From a virus, in the IMG/VR virus record IMGVR_UViG_3300027779_000213, positions 1 to 20,015 of that record: a stretch of DNA of 20,015 nt; one strand, 5' to 3'. Numbering within the stretch: position 1 is the stretch's first letter; each line of letters begins with the position of its first letter. The notes below the pieces were generated by a model. That model was not told the DNA's origin. It did no database searches and worked only from the letters and a program-made list of their open reading frames with translations. Below, piece after piece: positions 1,555 through 12,521 of the stretch. The position numbers were made by a program, and so were the translations under genes.

Positions 1555-1779
1555 TTAATGTAATGTGTTGAGTTGTACTTCGACATTCCAAGCGGCTTCC
1601 TCACCTTTTAATGCCATTGTTGTTAATGTGTCTTGCAACATGTAAGCGGTTTTTAATTTACCCACATGTATGACGACAACTTTGTGTGTTGTTTTGGCTC
1701 TTGATACTGCGTCAGTAACTAAGCCTGTCCAAATCAAAGCATCTTTCTTTTGCTTTGCAGTTGGTTGTTTAAAAATCAT
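1555..1779 (-). CDS. hypothetical protein (74 aa) between helicase and polymerase
   Basis: Begins with ATG inside the last codons of the primase-helicase gene (11-base overlap) and ends 2 bases before the next start, so it is embedded in the replication operon and probably translationally coupled. It is a mixed-charge, soluble-looking protein with a basic N-terminal segment (KQPTAKQKK), a central hydrophobic strand (KVVVIHVG) and a helix rich in alanine and threonine. No signal peptide or membrane segment is present. I do not recognise a family. Position suggests a replication accessory role, which is inference only. Confidence 0.7.
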   Translation of the reverse strand: MIFKQPTAKQKKDALIWTGLVTDAVSRAKTTHKVVVIHVGKLKTAYMLQDTLTTMALKGEEAAWNVEVQLNTLH

Positions 1780-3367
1780 CTAAGACTTCTGCCTTAACTT
1801 CAGTGAGACACCCTGTGTCTAAGTCATACTGTAAAGTACATGCACTGCCTGTTTCACCTGAATAACGATTTTTAAGAATTGTTACTTTAGCTAATTTCTT
1901 ATCTGACTTAATGTCTCTGCTGACAGAAAGTAACATGTCTGAAAGTTGACCAATACTTGCCGACCCTCTAAGAGCATTCATAGTAACTTCTTTACCGTCT
2001 TCGTAGCCTTTATCTCCTTCACTACGTCTAAGGTGAGAAACTAAAATAACTCCTATGCCTGTTTCTTCTACTAATGTTCTTAATTTACTTACAAAATAAT
2101 CTATAAGTTTTCTTTCATCATTTGTGTGTTCATCTCCTAATGCTGACAACGCCATATGTAAGTGGTCTAATATTACAAAGTCCACGTCACATGATTTAGC
2201 CATGTATCTTATTTTAGAGAGCAGGTTATCTGCAACTGTACTGCCAAAGTGATTATACAAATAGAACTTACCACTGCCCACAGTATCGTTAAATGTCTTA
2301 CGTAATTCTTCTTCACTAATGCCCTCTCTAGTTAAGTGTAATGGTTTTTTTAATTCAACTCCCATAATGCCTAAAGCACTACGCTTGATACTTTCTTCTA
2401 ATGCAATGTAGCCAACAGAAAACTTTTGCTTAATTAAATCTAAAGCTACATGACGACAGAAAGAACTTTTACCAACACCACTACCTGCGGTGATAGTTAC
2501 TAACTCTCCTTTTCGTAAACCATGCGTCTTAACATTTAGACATTCAAAAGGGTATTGTGCTGTAACATGTTTTTCTTCTTTCACTACATCATTCCAAATG
2601 TCAGTACCTAAAACTATTCCATCAGGTCTGTAAGGTTTAGCGTCCCACATTGCTCGTGTTAGTTCTGCACTACGTCCTGCAATGTGCATTTCGTTAGCAT
2701 CTTTTAATGGCAGAGTTGCAATCTTGGCTTTATTAGGTGAGAGAAGTTTTGCACATTCTACTGCACTTTTTTTGCCATGTTCGTCTTGGTCAAACATAAA
2801 GACGCAACTCTCATATCCTTCCAAGAATTCGAGAGACTTTTGAATATCTTTTTTTGCACCTGCCGCACCTGATTTAATAGATACTACAGGGAAACGATTT
2901 TGGTTAAGCATGGACATTGTTAATGCGTCCAATTCACCTTCTGTAATGACTAAAATTTTACCTTTGCCACTCCACAAGTGTTGTCCAAATAATCCTGATT
3001 GTTTTGCGTCACCTAACCATTGAAATTCTTTGCTAGGGTATCTTAATTTTTGTGCTACTAAGTTTTTGTCTTTATCATAATAGTTTGCTATTTGACATGG
3101 TCTGCCAAACCAAGAGCCTACTTGATAATTAAATTTCTGTGTTGTTGCTAAATCTATTTTTCTTTTTGGTAACGGAGCAATCTCTCCTGTAATAAAATTT
3201 GTAACTTTATCTGTCTGTGTTTGTGTAGGTGGTGTCAATGTGTTTCCTTTTGTGTGTTTGTTACATGAAAAACAATAAGAATGAGTATCGTACACAGCGT
3301 TTGCGTCACTGCTTCCACAGCTTTCACATGGACTGTGATATAAAAATTCACTTTCAGTTTGGTTCAT
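1769..3367 (-). CDS. T7 gp4-like primase-helicase
   Basis: Bifunctional primase and hexameric replicative helicase, 532 aa, close to T7 gp4 (566 aa). Domains in order: an N-terminal zinc finger with C14, C17, C32 and C35 that recognises the priming site; a TOPRIM primase core with ITEGELDALT (E143) and MFDQDEHGKK (D193, D195); and a RecA-like helicase with Walker A AGSGVGKS (294-301), Walker B FVILD (397-401), ILVSH (441-445), the RGSASIGQLSD segment (467-477) and KNRYSGETG (499-507). The presence of the zinc finger means this is the full-length primase form. T7 also makes a short helicase-only form from an internal start; no clear equivalent was identified. The start ATG at 3367 lies just past the divergent tRNA-Cys. 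Confidence 0.97.
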   Translation of the reverse strand: MNQTESEFLYHSPCESCGSSDANAVYDTHSYCFSCNKHTKGNTLTPPTQTQTDKVTNFITGEIAPLPKRKIDLATTQKFNYQVGSWFGRPCQIANYYDKDKNLVAQKLRYPSKEFQWLGDAKQSGLFGQHLWSGKGKILVITEGELDALTMSMLNQNRFPVVSIKSGAAGAKKDIQKSLEFLEGYESCVFMFDQDEHGKKSAVECAKLLSPNKAKIATLPLKDANEMHIAGRSAELTRAMWDAKPYRPDGIVLGTDIWNDVVKEEKHVTAQYPFECLNVKTHGLRKGELVTITAGSGVGKSSFCRHVALDLIKQKFSVGYIALEESIKRSALGIMGVELKKPLHLTREGISEEELRKTFNDTVGSGKFYLYNHFGSTVADNLLSKIRYMAKSCDVDFVILDHLHMALSALGDEHTNDERKLIDYFVSKLRTLVEETGIGVILVSHLRRSEGDKGYEDGKEVTMNALRGSASIGQLSDMLLSVSRDIKSDKKLAKVTILKNRYSGETGSACTLQYDLDTGCLTEVKAEVLDDF

Positions 3368-3403: not shown

Positions 3404-3477
3404 GGCATTGTGGCGGAATGGTTACGCAGTGGATTGCAAATCTACCTATCCCAGTTCGATTCTGGGCAATGCCTCCA
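3404..3477 (+). tRNA. tRNA-Cys (GCA) with encoded CCA
   Basis: Folds into a complete cloverleaf: acceptor stem GGCATTG with CAATGCC (7/7 pairs), D stem GCG/CGC, anticodon stem GTGGA/TCTAC (one G-T pair) around the loop TTGCAAA with anticodon GCA (3436-3438), a 4-base variable loop, and T stem CCCAG/CTGGG around TTCGATT. The discriminator is T3474 and CCA is encoded at 3475-3477. It is the only convincing plus-strand gene in the window and lies between primase-helicase and amidase, both minus. No strong host promoter is visible upstream; a weak TAATAAT occurs at 3372. Its anticodon arm closely matches the candidate attP at 7865-7880. Confidence 0.95.
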
Positions 3478-3570
3478 ATAGGTTTGAGGTAACTTCAGTC
3501 TCCCTCCATTACCCCATATCAGGGCAGAGCAAGGCTACTATGTGATTTCTCTTGATGCCCATAAACGACA

Positions 3571-3600
3571 AAGCCCTCAACTATTTCTAGCAAAGGGCTT
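3571..3600 (-). terminator. hairpin after amidase gene, possible terminator
   Basis: AAGCCCT (3571-3577) and AGGGCTT (3594-3600) form a perfect 7-bp stem with a 16-base loop, 12 bases beyond the amidase stop. In the minus direction it is followed only by TTTGTC, so as a terminator it is weak. It could reduce rather than block read-through into primase-helicase, or separate it from plus-strand transcription of the tRNA. Confidence 0.45.
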
Positions 3601-3612
3601 CATCTACAAACA

Positions 3613-4038
3613 CTATGTCAACAACTCTGAAACATCAAAGTTGGGACACAGAATGGAGTTTGCCACATCTCTGTGACCCACAACGCTGACTGTATACTTC
3701 TGTTTCAACTCTTTTACAAGATTTACCAACGAGGTATATTGTTTGAACGTGTAGTTACAGTCAGGTTTATTTTCTATGGACTTGCCTCCTATAAGACAAA
3801 CACCAATAGAATTTTTGTTAGTAATGTCAGGATTACCTTCAACATGAACTCCTGATAAAAGAATGTCTCTACCTTCTTGAACTGTGCCGTCACGTTTAAT
3901 AACATAATGGAACGCACAAGAAAATAATCCTTTTTTTCTATGTTCTGTATCTAAATCCTTAACATCTAAATTCTCTTTTGGAGCAGTGTGACTTGCATGT
4001 ATTATAACGTAAGAAGTTTCTTTTCTTTGATTACTCAT
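3613..4038 (-). CDS. T7 gp3.5-like N-acetylmuramoyl-L-alanine amidase
   Basis: Zinc amidase that cuts the bond between N-acetylmuramic acid and L-alanine in peptidoglycan. Counting residues from the GTG at 4044 (two codons upstream), the expected zinc ligands are H16 (VIIHASHT), H124 (VVGHRDV) and C133 (ILCPNFDV), with Y47 in the FHYVIKRDG strand. All match the T7 lysozyme pattern, and the 141-aa length is close to T7's 151. I prefer ATG at 4038, because GGAG lies about 6 bases upstream and it makes an ATGA overlap with the endonuclease stop. In T7 the same protein also binds and inhibits the phage RNA polymerase; whether it does here is unknown. There is no signal peptide, as in T7, so export would need a holin. 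Confidence 0.95.
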   Translation of the reverse strand: MSNQRKETSYVIIHASHTAPKENLDVKDLDTEHRKKGLFSCAFHYVIKRDGTVQEGRDILLSGVHVEGNPDITNKNSIGVCLIGGKSIENKPDCNYTFKQYTSLVNLVKELKQKYTVSVVGHRDVANSILCPNFDVSELLT

Positions 4039-4445
4039 ATCCACTCCAGTGGTATGTGTTTATCCGCATGTTTAAATCCATACTTATCGCACCACATGGC
4101 GTAAGTCGTTGCAGATTTTTTAGATATTCTACTTCTTGAATTACTAAATATAAATCTAATGTCTAATTTTGGGTGTTGCTCTTTTACTAATCTCATCTTC
4201 TGTCTATCAGCAGAAGTAAACAAACCTTTTGTTTCTATGAAAATGTCTTTGTCTGTTAAATGAAAGTCAGGGGTGTAAGTATGTGATTTCTCAGGTTTAG
4301 TATATTTCAACTTAACCTTTTCATACTCATACTTTACACTATTAGCTTTTAACTCTTGTGAGATTGCTATTTCTAGCCCTGACCTGAAGCCATATTTCAA
4401 ACCAACTTTATTAAAAGTCTGTGTTTGTTTGTGACTGTACTTCAT
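4035..4445 (-). CDS. T7 endonuclease I-like Holliday junction resolvase
   Basis: Structure-specific endonuclease (T7 gp3 family) that cleaves branched DNA and helps degrade host DNA. The fold signature is present in order: FRSGLE near the N-terminus (catalytic E), YTPDFHL (catalytic D), FIETKGLF (catalytic E-x-K), then the basic tail segment IRFIFSNSRSRISKKS and a C-terminal KYGFKHADKHIPLEW. The 136-aa length from ATG 4445 is close to T7's 149. The frame stays open another 29 codons upstream, but those codons lie inside the SSB gene and have no counterpart in the family. The overlap with the SSB 3' end is therefore 35 bases, and the downstream overlap with the amidase is ATGA. Confidence 0.95.
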   Translation of the reverse strand: MKYSHKQTQTFNKVGLKYGFRSGLEIAISQELKANSVKYEYEKVKLKYTKPEKSHTYTPDFHLTDKDIFIETKGLFTSADRQKMRLVKEQHPKLDIRFIFSNSRSRISKKSATTYAMWCDKYGFKHADKHIPLEWI

Positions 4446-5212: not shown

Positions 5213-7669
5213 TTAGGCAAAGAAAAACTTAGCTTTTTCTAGTAAACTAATATCCAATGAACCCTTTTCAGGCACATCAGGTAGAGTTTTCCTTAACTTC
5301 TCAGGTAATTGTTTTTCAACATCATCTTTAAAGTCTTGCAGTACGTCATGTTTAGTAAAGATATTCATAAAAGCCTTTCTTATGCTTATGTTAAGTTTAT
5401 CAATGTCACACGCATTCGTAGCGTAACTATCATGCACATTACAAAAGTTTTCTATTCCTGCTTCTTTTGCAATATTTACAGTTTCAACCATACAAGCACT
5501 GTCGATTGAGTGAACAAGGTTTGGTGCTACCGCATTACGCATTCTAAGTTTATCTGTTAAGTCAGTCTCAGTATTAATACGAGGTTTGATAACTTCTCCC
5601 ATCAACATTGCTTTAACTCTTTTAGATTTCATTTCAGGATAACTTTGAAATACAGGAAATCCAACAGGTGTAACCCAAGTGATTGGCAGTTGTTCTTTAG
5701 ACACAATTTTAGCTATGTCTTGAAGATACTTCATACCACTTCTAGCAGACGTTAAATTGTCTCCTATACTGTCCCAAATAACACTAGATAGATAACTTGC
5801 AGGTTTGAACATGTCATTTTCAAATGGGTGCATTTCTCCTTTATCTTTTCTTTTAGTTAAATCTTCCACCACAAAATCTGTGCAAGAAAATCTAGTAGAG
5901 CCATAACAGATAGTCATAATACTTCTTTTAGTAGTAGTACGTTTAACTCCATAGTCTAACCATGCTTGTGCATAAGGCTTACCTTCGGCTACATCTAATT
6001 TAAGTTTTTTATTAACTGTGTTTGCTACTAATTGGTAGATGTCTTGTGGTTTTTCTACTGGCAATAAATTAACCATCTCTCCTGCTTTAGCGTCTTTTAA
6101 CATTAAAGAATAAATTTGAAGACCATTACAAGAGCCATCAACATTAATAGGTATATAAGAAATAAAGCCTTCACCTTCTTTAAGGTATCTAGCCCATTCA
6201 TCACAAAATGCTAAAAATTGAAAAGCATTCCCTGCGTCTTCCCATTGTCTATTAGTTAATGGGTCTTCCGCACAAGCTACAATCATAGCTTCATTATCTT
6301 TAGTCCACTTTTCTCTAGCTTCAAATGTTATCTTATCTTCTCCATACATATTAGCACCATGCACAGCTAACCAAAAGATACCTCTATTCTCTGTAGTGAT
6401 AGGCTTACCTTTAGCAAAATTTAATAATGCTTTAGCACCATTGATAGATTGATAATTAAGAAACGCAGGAACACAATAGGCTCTTCCTCTAAAGTCTAAT
6501 TGTATTGGAAAGAATAAAGTAGCAAAGTTTTTAAACTTATCTGCTAACCAAATTATTTTTGCAAACAATAACCTTTTAGAAAACATACGGTTATTCTCTG
6601 TGTGAATAATTACAGCTTCCTTCTTCCATGATTTTCTACTGATGTCATTAGTATCAATATCATGTGGTTTATTGGGTATCTCTTTGTTCTTAGTTGAGGG
6701 CATTCCCCCCATAGACATTCCTCTATCCCACGCTTGTTTCATCACATCTAAGATAAAATGATTAATTTTATAAGCTGTGGATTGCATAGCATTAACCGCA
6801 TTATAAACCTGTGGCATTTCAAAGTTTTGCAACTCCTTTTGGAACAGTTTTTTGCCTAAACCATGTTGTTTAACAAGGTTTAATTCAGGTAGTTCCTTAG
6901 TCCAATAACCGCCTCCTACAGTGCTGTCCCACGACTTACAGGGCATTACAGTGGGCATATACTCAGGGTTTAGGAGTTCATTAAAGGTATTTCTCTCTTT
7001 AATCCAATCTCTAGTTTTTTGTGTCTGTTTGATAACTTTAGTCTTTTTATGCTTAACAGTTTCAGTCTTAATTTCAATCATACCTGTGGCATATATCATT
7101 AGTTCAATCAAACGTAGTCCAACGTGTAATTTCTCTGGTGTAGTCCATTCTTCCCATTTCATTACTTCGTCTCGTTTAGCACTCTCTTTTAGTTTTCTTC
7201 TTTTATAAGTATAGTTCCAACTTCTTCTATCTAAATCTTGACGTACTGTTTGGTATAACTCTGGGTTTAATAGCTTGAAATTTTTCAGTGCTATTTCAGT
7301 TTCTACTTTACCACCTAATGTTATGCAGGTAGCAGTTAACGGTCTATTTTGGGTGATTGTATTTATGATTGATTTGGCTGTGATAAGTGCCAGAATTTCT
7401 GGTTCAACTTCACAAATTTTAATGAATGCTAAAGGTGGCTTTTTAACAATATTTTTTGAGGTGTCTTCTATCCATTGGGCTATCTCCATAGCTAAAGGTC
7501 TAATGGTATTAGCAACCATTACTTTACCATAAGAGGTAACACTTTCTTCTTCTCGGATTATATGAGATTGTAACCTAGTGTTAGTCCTATGGACACCGGA
7601 GGCAGACATATCTTTTTCGTTGGCTTGTTGGTCTTTGAACGTAGGTAGGGCTTCTATTAATTTAGACAT
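5213..7669 (-). CDS. T7-like single-subunit RNA polymerase
   Basis: DNA-dependent RNA polymerase of the T7 family, 818 aa (T7: 883), which transcribes middle and late phage genes from phage-specific promoters. Key residues are visible: DFRGRAY (392-398, T7 DWRGRVY); motif A VDGSCNGLQ with catalytic D511; motif B RTTTKRSIMTICYG with K581 and Y589; and motif C NVHDSY with catalytic D747. The C-terminus ends FFFA, reminiscent of the FAFA end of T7 RNAP, where the C-terminal carboxylate lies near the active site. ATG 7669 follows AGGAGT at about 7 bases. A candidate phage promoter sits 46 bases upstream, suggesting autogenous transcription, and a hairpin terminator follows the stop. Adjacency to an integrase gene is typical of temperate T7-like marine phages. 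Confidence 0.97.
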   Translation of the reverse strand: MSKLIEALPTFKDQQANEKDMSASGVHRTNTRLQSHIIREEESVTSYGKVMVANTIRPLAMEIAQWIEDTSKNIVKKPPLAFIKICEVEPEILALITAKSIINTITQNRPLTATCITLGGKVETEIALKNFKLLNPELYQTVRQDLDRRSWNYTYKRRKLKESAKRDEVMKWEEWTTPEKLHVGLRLIELMIYATGMIEIKTETVKHKKTKVIKQTQKTRDWIKERNTFNELLNPEYMPTVMPCKSWDSTVGGGYWTKELPELNLVKQHGLGKKLFQKELQNFEMPQVYNAVNAMQSTAYKINHFILDVMKQAWDRGMSMGGMPSTKNKEIPNKPHDIDTNDISRKSWKKEAVIIHTENNRMFSKRLLFAKIIWLADKFKNFATLFFPIQLDFRGRAYCVPAFLNYQSINGAKALLNFAKGKPITTENRGIFWLAVHGANMYGEDKITFEAREKWTKDNEAMIVACAEDPLTNRQWEDAGNAFQFLAFCDEWARYLKEGEGFISYIPINVDGSCNGLQIYSLMLKDAKAGEMVNLLPVEKPQDIYQLVANTVNKKLKLDVAEGKPYAQAWLDYGVKRTTTKRSIMTICYGSTRFSCTDFVVEDLTKRKDKGEMHPFENDMFKPASYLSSVIWDSIGDNLTSARSGMKYLQDIAKIVSKEQLPITWVTPVGFPVFQSYPEMKSKRVKAMLMGEVIKPRINTETDLTDKLRMRNAVAPNLVHSIDSACMVETVNIAKEAGIENFCNVHDSYATNACDIDKLNISIRKAFMNIFTKHDVLQDFKDDVEKQLPEKLRKTLPDVPEKGSLDISLLEKAKFFFA

Positions 7670-7740: not shown

Positions 7741-7852
7741 GTAACCGTAGGATTGGTGTACAATTTAGGGTTCGTCCTTTGGCACATTTTTTGAACAGTG
7801 CTAAAGAATAGTTGAGTGTTTACGTATCTTATTGACGATAATACATGCAGTG

Positions 7853-7897
7853 ACGGATTAATTACAGAGGATTGCAAATCCCATTGTATCAATCCGT
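7853..7897. other. candidate phage attachment site (attP) with tRNA-Cys anticodon-arm core
   Basis: A symmetric site centred on C7875: outer arms ACGGATT (7853-7859) and AATCCGT (7891-7897), inner arms GGATT (7869-7873) and AATCC (7877-7881) around GCA. The core CAGAGGATTGCAAATC (7865-7880) matches 15 of 16 bases of the window's tRNA-Cys anticodon arm (3427-3442). It lies about 80 bases beyond the integrase stop, the usual place for attP. There is no T-arm-like or acceptor sequence on either side. Lying in the 307-base gene-free stretch 7670-7976, it is best read as a tyrosine-recombinase crossover site aimed at a host tRNA-Cys gene. Confidence 0.7.
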
Positions 7898-7919: not shown

Positions 7920-7976
7920 ATCTTTACTGTGTAACACTAAACAACTATCCTTTAACATTTATTATTCCTCTATCGG

Positions 7977-8852
7977 TTAAGTATTTTTGTTAATCGAATT
8001 AAGAACATTTACTGCACCCATCAAATTATTTGGTATCAAATGGGCATATCTTTTTATCATCTTCCACGACTTGTGACCTAGCATTGCTCCTATCATGTGA
8101 AGTTCAACTTTACCTGATTGAGCCAAACGAGTTGCACAAGTGTGTCTTAAACAATGAATAACAAACTCTTTGTCTTCAGTAAGGTTCATTGCTTTTCTCA
8201 GTCTTCTCCAAGTATTCTCACAAGTCCAATACTTCAACTGTGAAAACACTAGGTCGTTTCTCTCCGCTTTAGTTAACAACTTATCAACGATTGCTTTAGC
8301 ACGATATGTTAATGGTATTCCTCTAGCTTCACCATTCTTAGTGAGACTAGCAGGTAAGTTAACAACAGAGTGTCCGTTGTTATTGTGTACCATCAACTTC
8401 TTAATAGATAGTGCTTCCCCCAAACGCATTCCAGTATCAATTAAAAATAAAAAGAACTCTAAATAATTAACCATATTCCATTCAGTTAATAATTTAATAA
8501 TTTCCTTTTCTTCTGGAGGTTCAAGGTATCGTTGTCTTCCATTGTTTTCGCTTTGCCATTCAATATGAGGCATTCTATCTAAATGATAAATAGATTGTCT
8601 TTGATTGGCATAACGTAACATCTTAGAGATTGAGGACATGTAACGATTTATAGTAGCAGGAGCATAATTCCTGTCTTCTAAAGTATCCACGAGTTGTGCT
8701 ATGTGGGTATCGTTAACTTCAGTCACAAGCATTCCACGACCAAGCATTTCAATTACTTTTTCGCCTCGCTTAGACTGCATTTTTTCCCAACCTTTGTCTG
8801 TTAACTTGCGGTGTATCTCCGATAGCAACTTTGCATTCTTTTGTTGCAACAT
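7977..8852 (-). CDS. tyrosine site-specific recombinase (phage integrase)
   Basis: Integrase of the tyrosine recombinase family, 291 aa. An N-terminal SAM-like core-binding region (about 1-105) precedes the catalytic domain with R143 (DTGMRLGEAL), K172 (SLTKNGEARGIPL), the box IHCLRHTCATRL (H233, R236), H260 (MLGHKSW) and the nucleophile Y269 (KRYAHL). All catalytic residues are intact, so the enzyme is likely active. ATG 8852 follows CGGAGG at a good distance, 24 bases after the regulator gene, so both are probably cotranscribed. It would integrate the phage at the site matching attP 7853-7897. Its presence makes this phage temperate, at least by gene content. Confidence 0.96.
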   Translation of the reverse strand: MLQQKNAKLLSEIHRKLTDKGWEKMQSKRGEKVIEMLGRGMLVTEVNDTHIAQLVDTLEDRNYAPATINRYMSSISKMLRYANQRQSIYHLDRMPHIEWQSENNGRQRYLEPPEEKEIIKLLTEWNMVNYLEFFLFLIDTGMRLGEALSIKKLMVHNNNGHSVVNLPASLTKNGEARGIPLTYRAKAIVDKLLTKAERNDLVFSQLKYWTCENTWRRLRKAMNLTEDKEFVIHCLRHTCATRLAQSGKVELHMIGAMLGHKSWKMIKRYAHLIPNNLMGAVNVLNSINKNT

Positions 8853-12180: not shown

Positions 12181-12252
12181 AGAGATACCCAGAGAGATAC
12201 CCAGAGAGATACCCAGAGAGATACCCAGAGAGATACCCAGAGAGATACACAG
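12181..12252. repeat. tandem array A: six 12-bp units
   Basis: Five perfect copies of agagatacccag (12181-12240) and a sixth with one change (12241-12252). Unit sequence differs from array B on the other side. T7 has short repeat arrays immediately inside each terminal repeat; the placement here, between packaging genes and early genes, is equivalent. Open frames across it are artefacts of the period. Confidence 0.85.
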
Positions 12253-12383
12253 TGGTTTTCTTTTTGTTTTCTCTATGATGGGAACTTTTATAATTATAAT
12301 TACAATGACCTTGTGTGTGCGTTCAGTCTTTGGTGTGGCTGTGCGTGGCTGTGTGTGGCTCTATGTGTGGGCTGTGCGTGTGT
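12253..12383. other. candidate direct terminal repeat / genome-end junction
   Basis: The 131 bases between two different 12-bp arrays. In T7 the circle junction order is right-end repeats, terminal repeat, left-end repeats; here array B, this segment and array A occupy those places, between lysozyme/terminase and the first early genes. It contains a phage-promoter-like site. Boundaries are inferred; the repeat would appear only once in a circularised assembly. Confidence 0.4.
12272..12300 (-). promoter_or_regulatory. candidate phage RNA polymerase promoter near genome end
   Basis: Minus strand contains TTATAAAAGTTCCCATCATAG, nearly identical to the site at 7715. It is upstream of the early genes in the likely end region. 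In T7, promoters near the ends (phi-OL and phi-OR) serve replication; an equivalent role is possible here. Confidence 0.55.
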
Positions 12384-12521
12384 CTGTGCGTGATACTTAA
12401 AGAATGCCTGTGCGTTGGCCTGTGCGTGATACTTAAAGAATGCCTGTGCGTTGGCCTGTGCGTTGGCCTGTGCGTTGGCCTGTGCGTTGGCCTGTGCGTT
12501 GGCCTGTGCGTTGGCCTGTGC
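12384..12521. repeat. tandem array B: 12-bp and 36-bp repeats
   Basis: Six perfect tandem copies of gcctgtgcgttg at 12442-12513, a partial copy after them, another copy at 12406-12417 and a variant at 12418-12429. The first 72 bases (12384-12455) are two perfect copies of a 36-bp unit, each holding the insert gatacttaaagaat. The insert recalls tactttaaga just before array A. Frames translating as four-residue repeats are artefacts. Confidence 0.85.

Follow-up and report, generated by a model that had tools for sequence, protein, structure and literature searches.

A complete tRNA-Cys accompanies core-only attP sites in HTVC019P-type pelagiphages and probably replaces the host tRNA-Cys gene disrupted by integration

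The 20,015-base stretch of phage DNA analysed here (record IMGVR_UViG_3300027779_000213 in IMG/VR; "the window") very probably carries a module for tRNA-dependent lysogeny, in which an attP reduced to its core would disrupt the host tRNA-Cys gene and a complete tRNA-Cys encoded by the phage would replace it. At the level of sequence, the anatomy of this module, the mutual exclusion of two attP forms, repeated switching between them, a conserved attP frame and covariation of the tRNA stems are directly apparent. By gene order and sequence the window is an HTVC019P-type pelagiphage (Pelagivirus, Autographiviridae; T7-like SAR11 phage), and its best DNA matches, mostly phages isolated on Candidatus Pelagibacter, have 68-75% identity over the primase-integrase region. 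The features that make up the module and its surroundings are as follows.

1769-3367, minus strand: primase; the tRNA-Cys sits between this gene and the amidase/lysozyme gene
3404-3477, plus strand: complete tRNA-Cys(GCA) with encoded CCA, the proposed replacement tRNA (ARAGORN and Rfam, 59 bits)
3613-4044, minus strand: amidase/lysozyme, the other neighbour of the tRNA-Cys
5213-7669, minus strand: T7-like RNA polymerase (domain match and isolate annotation), between the tRNA and attP
7799-7814, plus strand: left arm-type inverted repeat TGCTAAAGAATAGTTG, a probable integrase arm site, at the same core distance in both attP forms
7842-7869, plus strand: stretch corresponding in position to the 28-nt tRNA-Cys 5' half of relatives, matching it here at 8/28 nt
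7865-7881, plus strand: attP core CAGAGGATTGCAAATCC, 17 nt identical to the chromosomal tRNA-Cys of the SAR11-phage attB type
7942-7957, plus strand: right arm-type inverted repeat CAACTATCCTTTAACA, at +72 from the core
7977-8852, minus strand: intact tyrosine integrase of 291 aa (PF00589, E=5e-23)

ARAGORN and Rfam both confirmed the complete, CCA-encoding tRNA-Cys(GCA) that a first-pass annotation had reported, and identified it as the sole tRNA of the window. The annotated genes around it, as judged by comparison with isolates, all lie on the minus strand, so that its orientation opposite to the phage genes was also described correctly. In HTVC019P and in many metagenomic relatives a tRNA-Cys likewise lies between primase and lysozyme. 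When the host gene was compared with seven phage sequences, 99.4% of the stem cells were paired and 8 pairs showed double changes, a covariation that exceeded all 500 shuffles. The shared position and the covarying stems argue against a chance tRNA-like sequence, and this pattern of substitution indicates that the replacement tRNA is kept under selection as a tRNA. No sigma-70-like or consensus promoter was detected upstream of the window tRNA-Cys, and promoter and terminator scans nearby were empty.

Two further elements of the window were observed. A two-hairpin element at 3487-3600, between tRNA/primase and the lysozyme gene, consists of a hairpin with a TTCAGTCTCCCT loop followed by a second hairpin; it is kept in the compared relatives with or without a tRNA, three of its pairs have changed on both sides, no Rfam family matched it, and the window copy contains an insertion of ~45 bp. 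At 12181-12521, in a region without a recognised gene, lie two perfect or near-perfect 12-bp tandem arrays (AGAGATACCCAG x6 and GCCTGTGCGTTG x6.7) and a 36-bp repeat.

A second copy of the anticodon-arm core was found at 7865-7881, between the RNA polymerase and integrase genes, 4.4 kb from the tRNA-Cys and in the same orientation, which bears out the earlier assignment of an attP core with the same tRNA-Cys specificity. As only 8/28 nt of the tRNA 5' half are matched in the window attP, integration cannot rebuild the host tRNA. The core is flanked by the two arm repeats, which are 88% complementary in the window. In both attP forms the left repeat begins 63-65 bp before the core, and in every contig of either form that reaches it the right repeat lies at exactly +72. 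This common spacing makes the core-only attP look functional, and the constancy of the arm frame suggests that the 28-nt tRNA half has been replaced where it stood, with no change to the recombination frame. The integrase of the window is 81-87% identical to integrases of isolates with a tRNA-Cys or tRNA-Leu attP, and the catalytic residues are invariant in the alignment. Thus, the window combines features of tRNA-dependent lysogeny, namely an attP with arm-type sites adjacent to a phage tyrosine integrase and a complete phage tRNA of the same isotype. We also noted a 21-nt imperfect inverted repeat (ACGGATT...AATCCGT) at 7853-7897, with the anticodon GCA of the attP core at its centre, and similar inverted repeats flank the core in some other core-only attPs.

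The strongest evidence for the replacement function comes from the relatives. IMG/VR integrase relatives, the results of two pattern scans and isolates were dereplicated by shared 1500-mers and then classified, an attP being assigned to the 5'-half class at ≥25/28 nt and to the core-only class at 5-17/28 nt. The isolates HTVC201P, HTVC021P, HTVC304P, Ran, HTVC121P, HTVC131P and HTVC022P have a 5'-half attP, in which the tRNA-Cys half reads GGCAACGTGGCGGAATGGTTACGCAGAGGATTGCAAATCC with one substitution in HTVC131P, and all are without a complete tRNA, whereas the window and HTVC019P have an attP made of the anticodon-arm core alone plus a complete tRNA. Among the 34 contigs of the 5'-half class the tRNA site is visible in 25, none of which has a complete tRNA-Cys; among the 15 core-only contigs it is visible in 11, all of which have one. 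The difference gives a Fisher p=1.7e-9, a value that overstates independence because the contigs are related. Among these phages a complete tRNA-Cys thus occurs in just those whose attP is unable to rebuild the host gene, the tie between tRNA-Cys and attP type that the first-pass annotation had put forward as a check, and its disrupt-and-replace reading is supported by this comparison. Searches of whole records agreed: none of 13 near-full-length 5'-half phages had a tRNA that passed the Rfam cut-off, weak matches being the most that was seen; three core-only phages gave one tRNA each, and four phages without an integrase gave none. Two apparent exceptions with a tRNA and no core (L240 and L191) were rejected, as both contigs break off within the RNA polymerase gene and do not extend to attP.

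Phages with other attachment sites were likewise expected to lack tRNA-Cys, and indeed rebuilding attPs in other tRNAs carry no tRNA, as was found for 5'-half attPs of tRNA-Leu(TAA) and tRNA-Arg. A tRNA-Phe pair follows the same rule, with a 5' half and no tRNA in L091, and a core only together with a tRNA-Phe in L078. HTVC011P has a core-type tRNA-Leu(TAG) attP with a complete tRNA-Leu adjoining it, in agreement with PMC6811365. One group counts against the main reading: L079, L085 and L086, whose integrases are 45-47% identical and which have ~45-50 bp between RNA polymerase and integrase, have a different tRNA-Cys on the far side of the integrase, and a recognisable attP was not seen in them. 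In two other contigs, L033 and L048, the integrase is kept, the attP region is gone (~33 bp are left between RNA polymerase and integrase) and there is no tRNA; judged by this arrangement, they probably cannot integrate at tRNA-Cys.

In many lytic phages tRNAs serve translation, and the tRNA-Cys might accordingly support lytic growth through Cys decoding, unrelated to integration. We regard this as very unlikely, since the presence of the tRNA tracks the attP form and not gene content and the integrase-free sister phages have no tRNA. Moreover, Cys accounts for only 1.3% of the codons in the main genes of the window (6 TGC and 44 TGT in 3809 codons), which makes a need of lytic translation an improbable reason for the tRNA.

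The integrase tree requires at least four changes of attP form and contains three independent pairs, two of which have strong branch support. Wherever the branches are supported, each pair shows the tRNA matching the attP form; with only about three independent pairs, a phylogenetically corrected test has little power alone. L029 and L030 have identical integrases and different attP forms. L072 has a decayed 5' half with 17/28 matches (chance P about 7e-5 to 7e-4) and already carries the tRNA. Taken with the rebuilding form of both outgroup integrases, L012 and L091, L072 suggests that this form is ancestral and that the 5' half would have decayed after the tRNA was gained. In a separate case, L046 and L054 are identical over a stretch of 1.5 kb or more but have different attPs (tRNA-Cys versus tRNA-Leu 5' half), which suggests exchange of an int-att module.

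These data can be combined into a mechanism. The tyrosine integrase would recombine the attP core at 7865-7881 with the anticodon-arm region of the host tRNA-Cys gene, with strand exchange within the core. Given the attP orientation, the phage 5' half of the rebuilding relatives would join the host 3' half by recombination inside the core and restore the tRNA, whereas the window attP, being without the 5' half, would leave broken tRNA halves at both junctions. A lysogen without a spare tRNA-Cys would be expected to die, and the phage tRNA-Cys, encoded opposite to the lytic genes, would supply the lost function. A search for host 3'-half junctions gave only two intact tRNA genes and no lysogen of a core-only phage, and the integrase search of genome contigs returned one contig, from a Marinimicrobia MAG. 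The loss of the 5' half and the lack of a known lysogen for the core-only contigs would also fit a decayed, non-functional site with the tRNA as an unrelated leftover. This is the least probable of the alternatives considered here, as core, arm repeats and spacing are kept in all core-only phages, the integrase is intact, the tRNA stems covary, and the tRNA is never missing where its site is visible.

A replacement tRNA that resembles the attP core raises the question of how it avoids its own integrase. Recombination between the tRNA and attP would delete the segment with the amidase/lysozyme, endonuclease, SSB and RNA polymerase genes, the last two of which the first-pass annotation had named. 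The differences from attP listed in the first-pass annotation are correct: the anticodon stem of the window tRNA-Cys is GTGGA/TCTAC, with T3430 for an A in attP and TCTAC for TCCCA. As host reference we used the tRNA-Cys of a chromosomal contig (L270) that carries valS, tRNA-Cys and a partial tRNA-Asn; the 5' half of this tRNA-Cys is identical to the attP half. Core-only attPs have 15-18 bp in common with the host tRNA-Cys and 11-12 bp with their own phage tRNA. All replacement tRNAs depart from the attP sequence immediately beyond the central 11 bp of the core, and T41 takes the place of the C41 of host and attP in each of the four anticodon-stem types of replacement tRNA-Cys; for comparison, C41 occurs in 81% of 52 distinct tRNA-Cys from unrelated phages collected in a broad tRNA-Cys pattern scan. 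A G-C to A-T exchange of the same kind is seen in the tRNA-Phe of L078. The earlier proposal that these changes shield the tRNA from the integrase thereby gains support without being proven, and the changed stem pairs beside the core, few as the examples are, probably stop the integrase from using the replacement tRNA. The replacement tRNAs may, however, have differed already when they were acquired.

Altered anticodon arms are also known to let phage tRNAs escape tRNA nucleases, and the phage tRNA might counter a host nuclease that cuts tRNA-Cys, with the stem changes evading it. This possibility, raised for phages of this kind in PMC10865867, appears even less likely than a role in lytic growth, since the anticodon loop TTGCAAA is unchanged in the replacement tRNA-Cys, the differences being confined to stem pairs, and since mutual exclusion with the 5'-half attP is not predicted by it. 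Protection from the integrase also finds a parallel in the tRNA-Lys of mycobacteriophage LeBron, which has only the loop in common with an attP-like sequence near int; LeBron is described as a tRNA-dependent phage with a published attP-attB core of 17 bp (PMC10865867).

More tentatively, the replacement tRNA could have been selected for escape from its own integrase, comparable to a recoded antidote, an idea that we consider less likely than not. The lysogen would then be closed to competitors for the same site, because the only good attB of the host would be destroyed and the remaining tRNA-Cys unusable. If true, the excluded competitors would include 5'-half pelagiphages and a 9-kb element found in our search (L214). 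This circular element of ~9.1 kb with a 127-bp terminal repeat, to which L219 and L226 are similar, encodes a putative tyrosine integrase of 510 aa together with primase/helicase-like and SSB-like proteins; its attP carries the same tRNA-Cys 5' half. From its gene content it looks like a SAR11 phage satellite or another integrating element competing for the same attB. On the host reference contig a further prophage-like element (L270:1515-8142) starts inside the tRNA-Asn gene, beside valS and the intact tRNA-Cys; with this element in the neighbouring gene, the tRNA-Cys/tRNA-Asn pair may be an integration hot spot.

The disrupt-and-replace arrangement had been called unusual, which needs qualifying, as precedents exist (PMC10865867, PMC6811365). 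Like the window, the actinobacteriophages described by Guerrero-Bustamante and Hatfull (2024, PMC10865867) combine a tyrosine integrase and a short attP core in the anticodon region with a phage tRNA of the same isotype and no rebuilding, and like the pelagiphages they have rebuilding relatives without a tRNA and switching on the integrase tree. They differ in that the window is a T7-like podovirus of SAR11 with a tRNA-Cys, in the tRNA part carried by rebuilding relatives (5' half in pelagiphages, 3' half in actinobacteriophages) and in core length (15-18 bp versus 8-17 bp). Neither the Results on the Fionnbharth tRNA and on further phages nor the Discussion of that paper takes up why the phage tRNA is not itself an att site; its authors left two points unsettled, the frequency of the system beyond their own phages and the order in which the two forms arose.

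Closer to the window, Group III HTVC019P-type pelagiphages and uv-Fonsiphage-EPL are stated to make good the loss of the host tRNA-Leu at integration with a tRNA-Leu(TAG) of their own (Chen et al. 2019, PMC6811365). The replacement is as proposed here, with an 11-bp core and a real prophage known; a complete genome of Fonsibacter (SAR11 order) has 31 tRNAs (PMC6811365). Unlike in the window, where tRNA and attP are 4.4 kb apart, the tRNA gene of HTVC011P adjoins attP, the tRNA is another one, and the integrase, about 26% identical to that of the window, belongs to another group. HTVC022P is reported to integrate at the host tRNA-Cys (PMC12753301, citing Zhao et al. 2019); its record (L010) encodes an integrase 87% identical to that of the window, and contains an attP with the 5' half and no complete tRNA. 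It thus resembles the window in integrase position, target tRNA and attP frame and differs from it in carrying the tRNA 5' half, by which the host gene is rebuilt. T7-like cyanophages integrating at tRNA-Leu (PMC8776855) have the same integrase position, a 5'-half attP and a rebuilt host gene.

Against this background, the occurrence of a tRNA-Cys case in T7-like SAR11 phages and the exact mutual exclusion within one integrase family seem to be new, as do the in-place overwriting of the tRNA half, the repeated switching and the repeated convergent stem changes beside the core; part of these features, including the HTVC019P tRNA-Cys, may already be known, the comparison having been made without Zhao 2019 and Morris 2020. 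With this finding tRNA-dependent lysogeny, described for actinobacteriophages, reaches the T7-like phages of SAR11, which outnumber all other bacteria of the sea; it also explains the single tRNA in some otherwise tRNA-free pelagiphages. It provides a clean natural comparison in which one integrase family and one attP frame go with two ways of keeping the host tRNA. Because the stem changes recur, it also becomes possible to test directly whether the replacement tRNA is self-immune.
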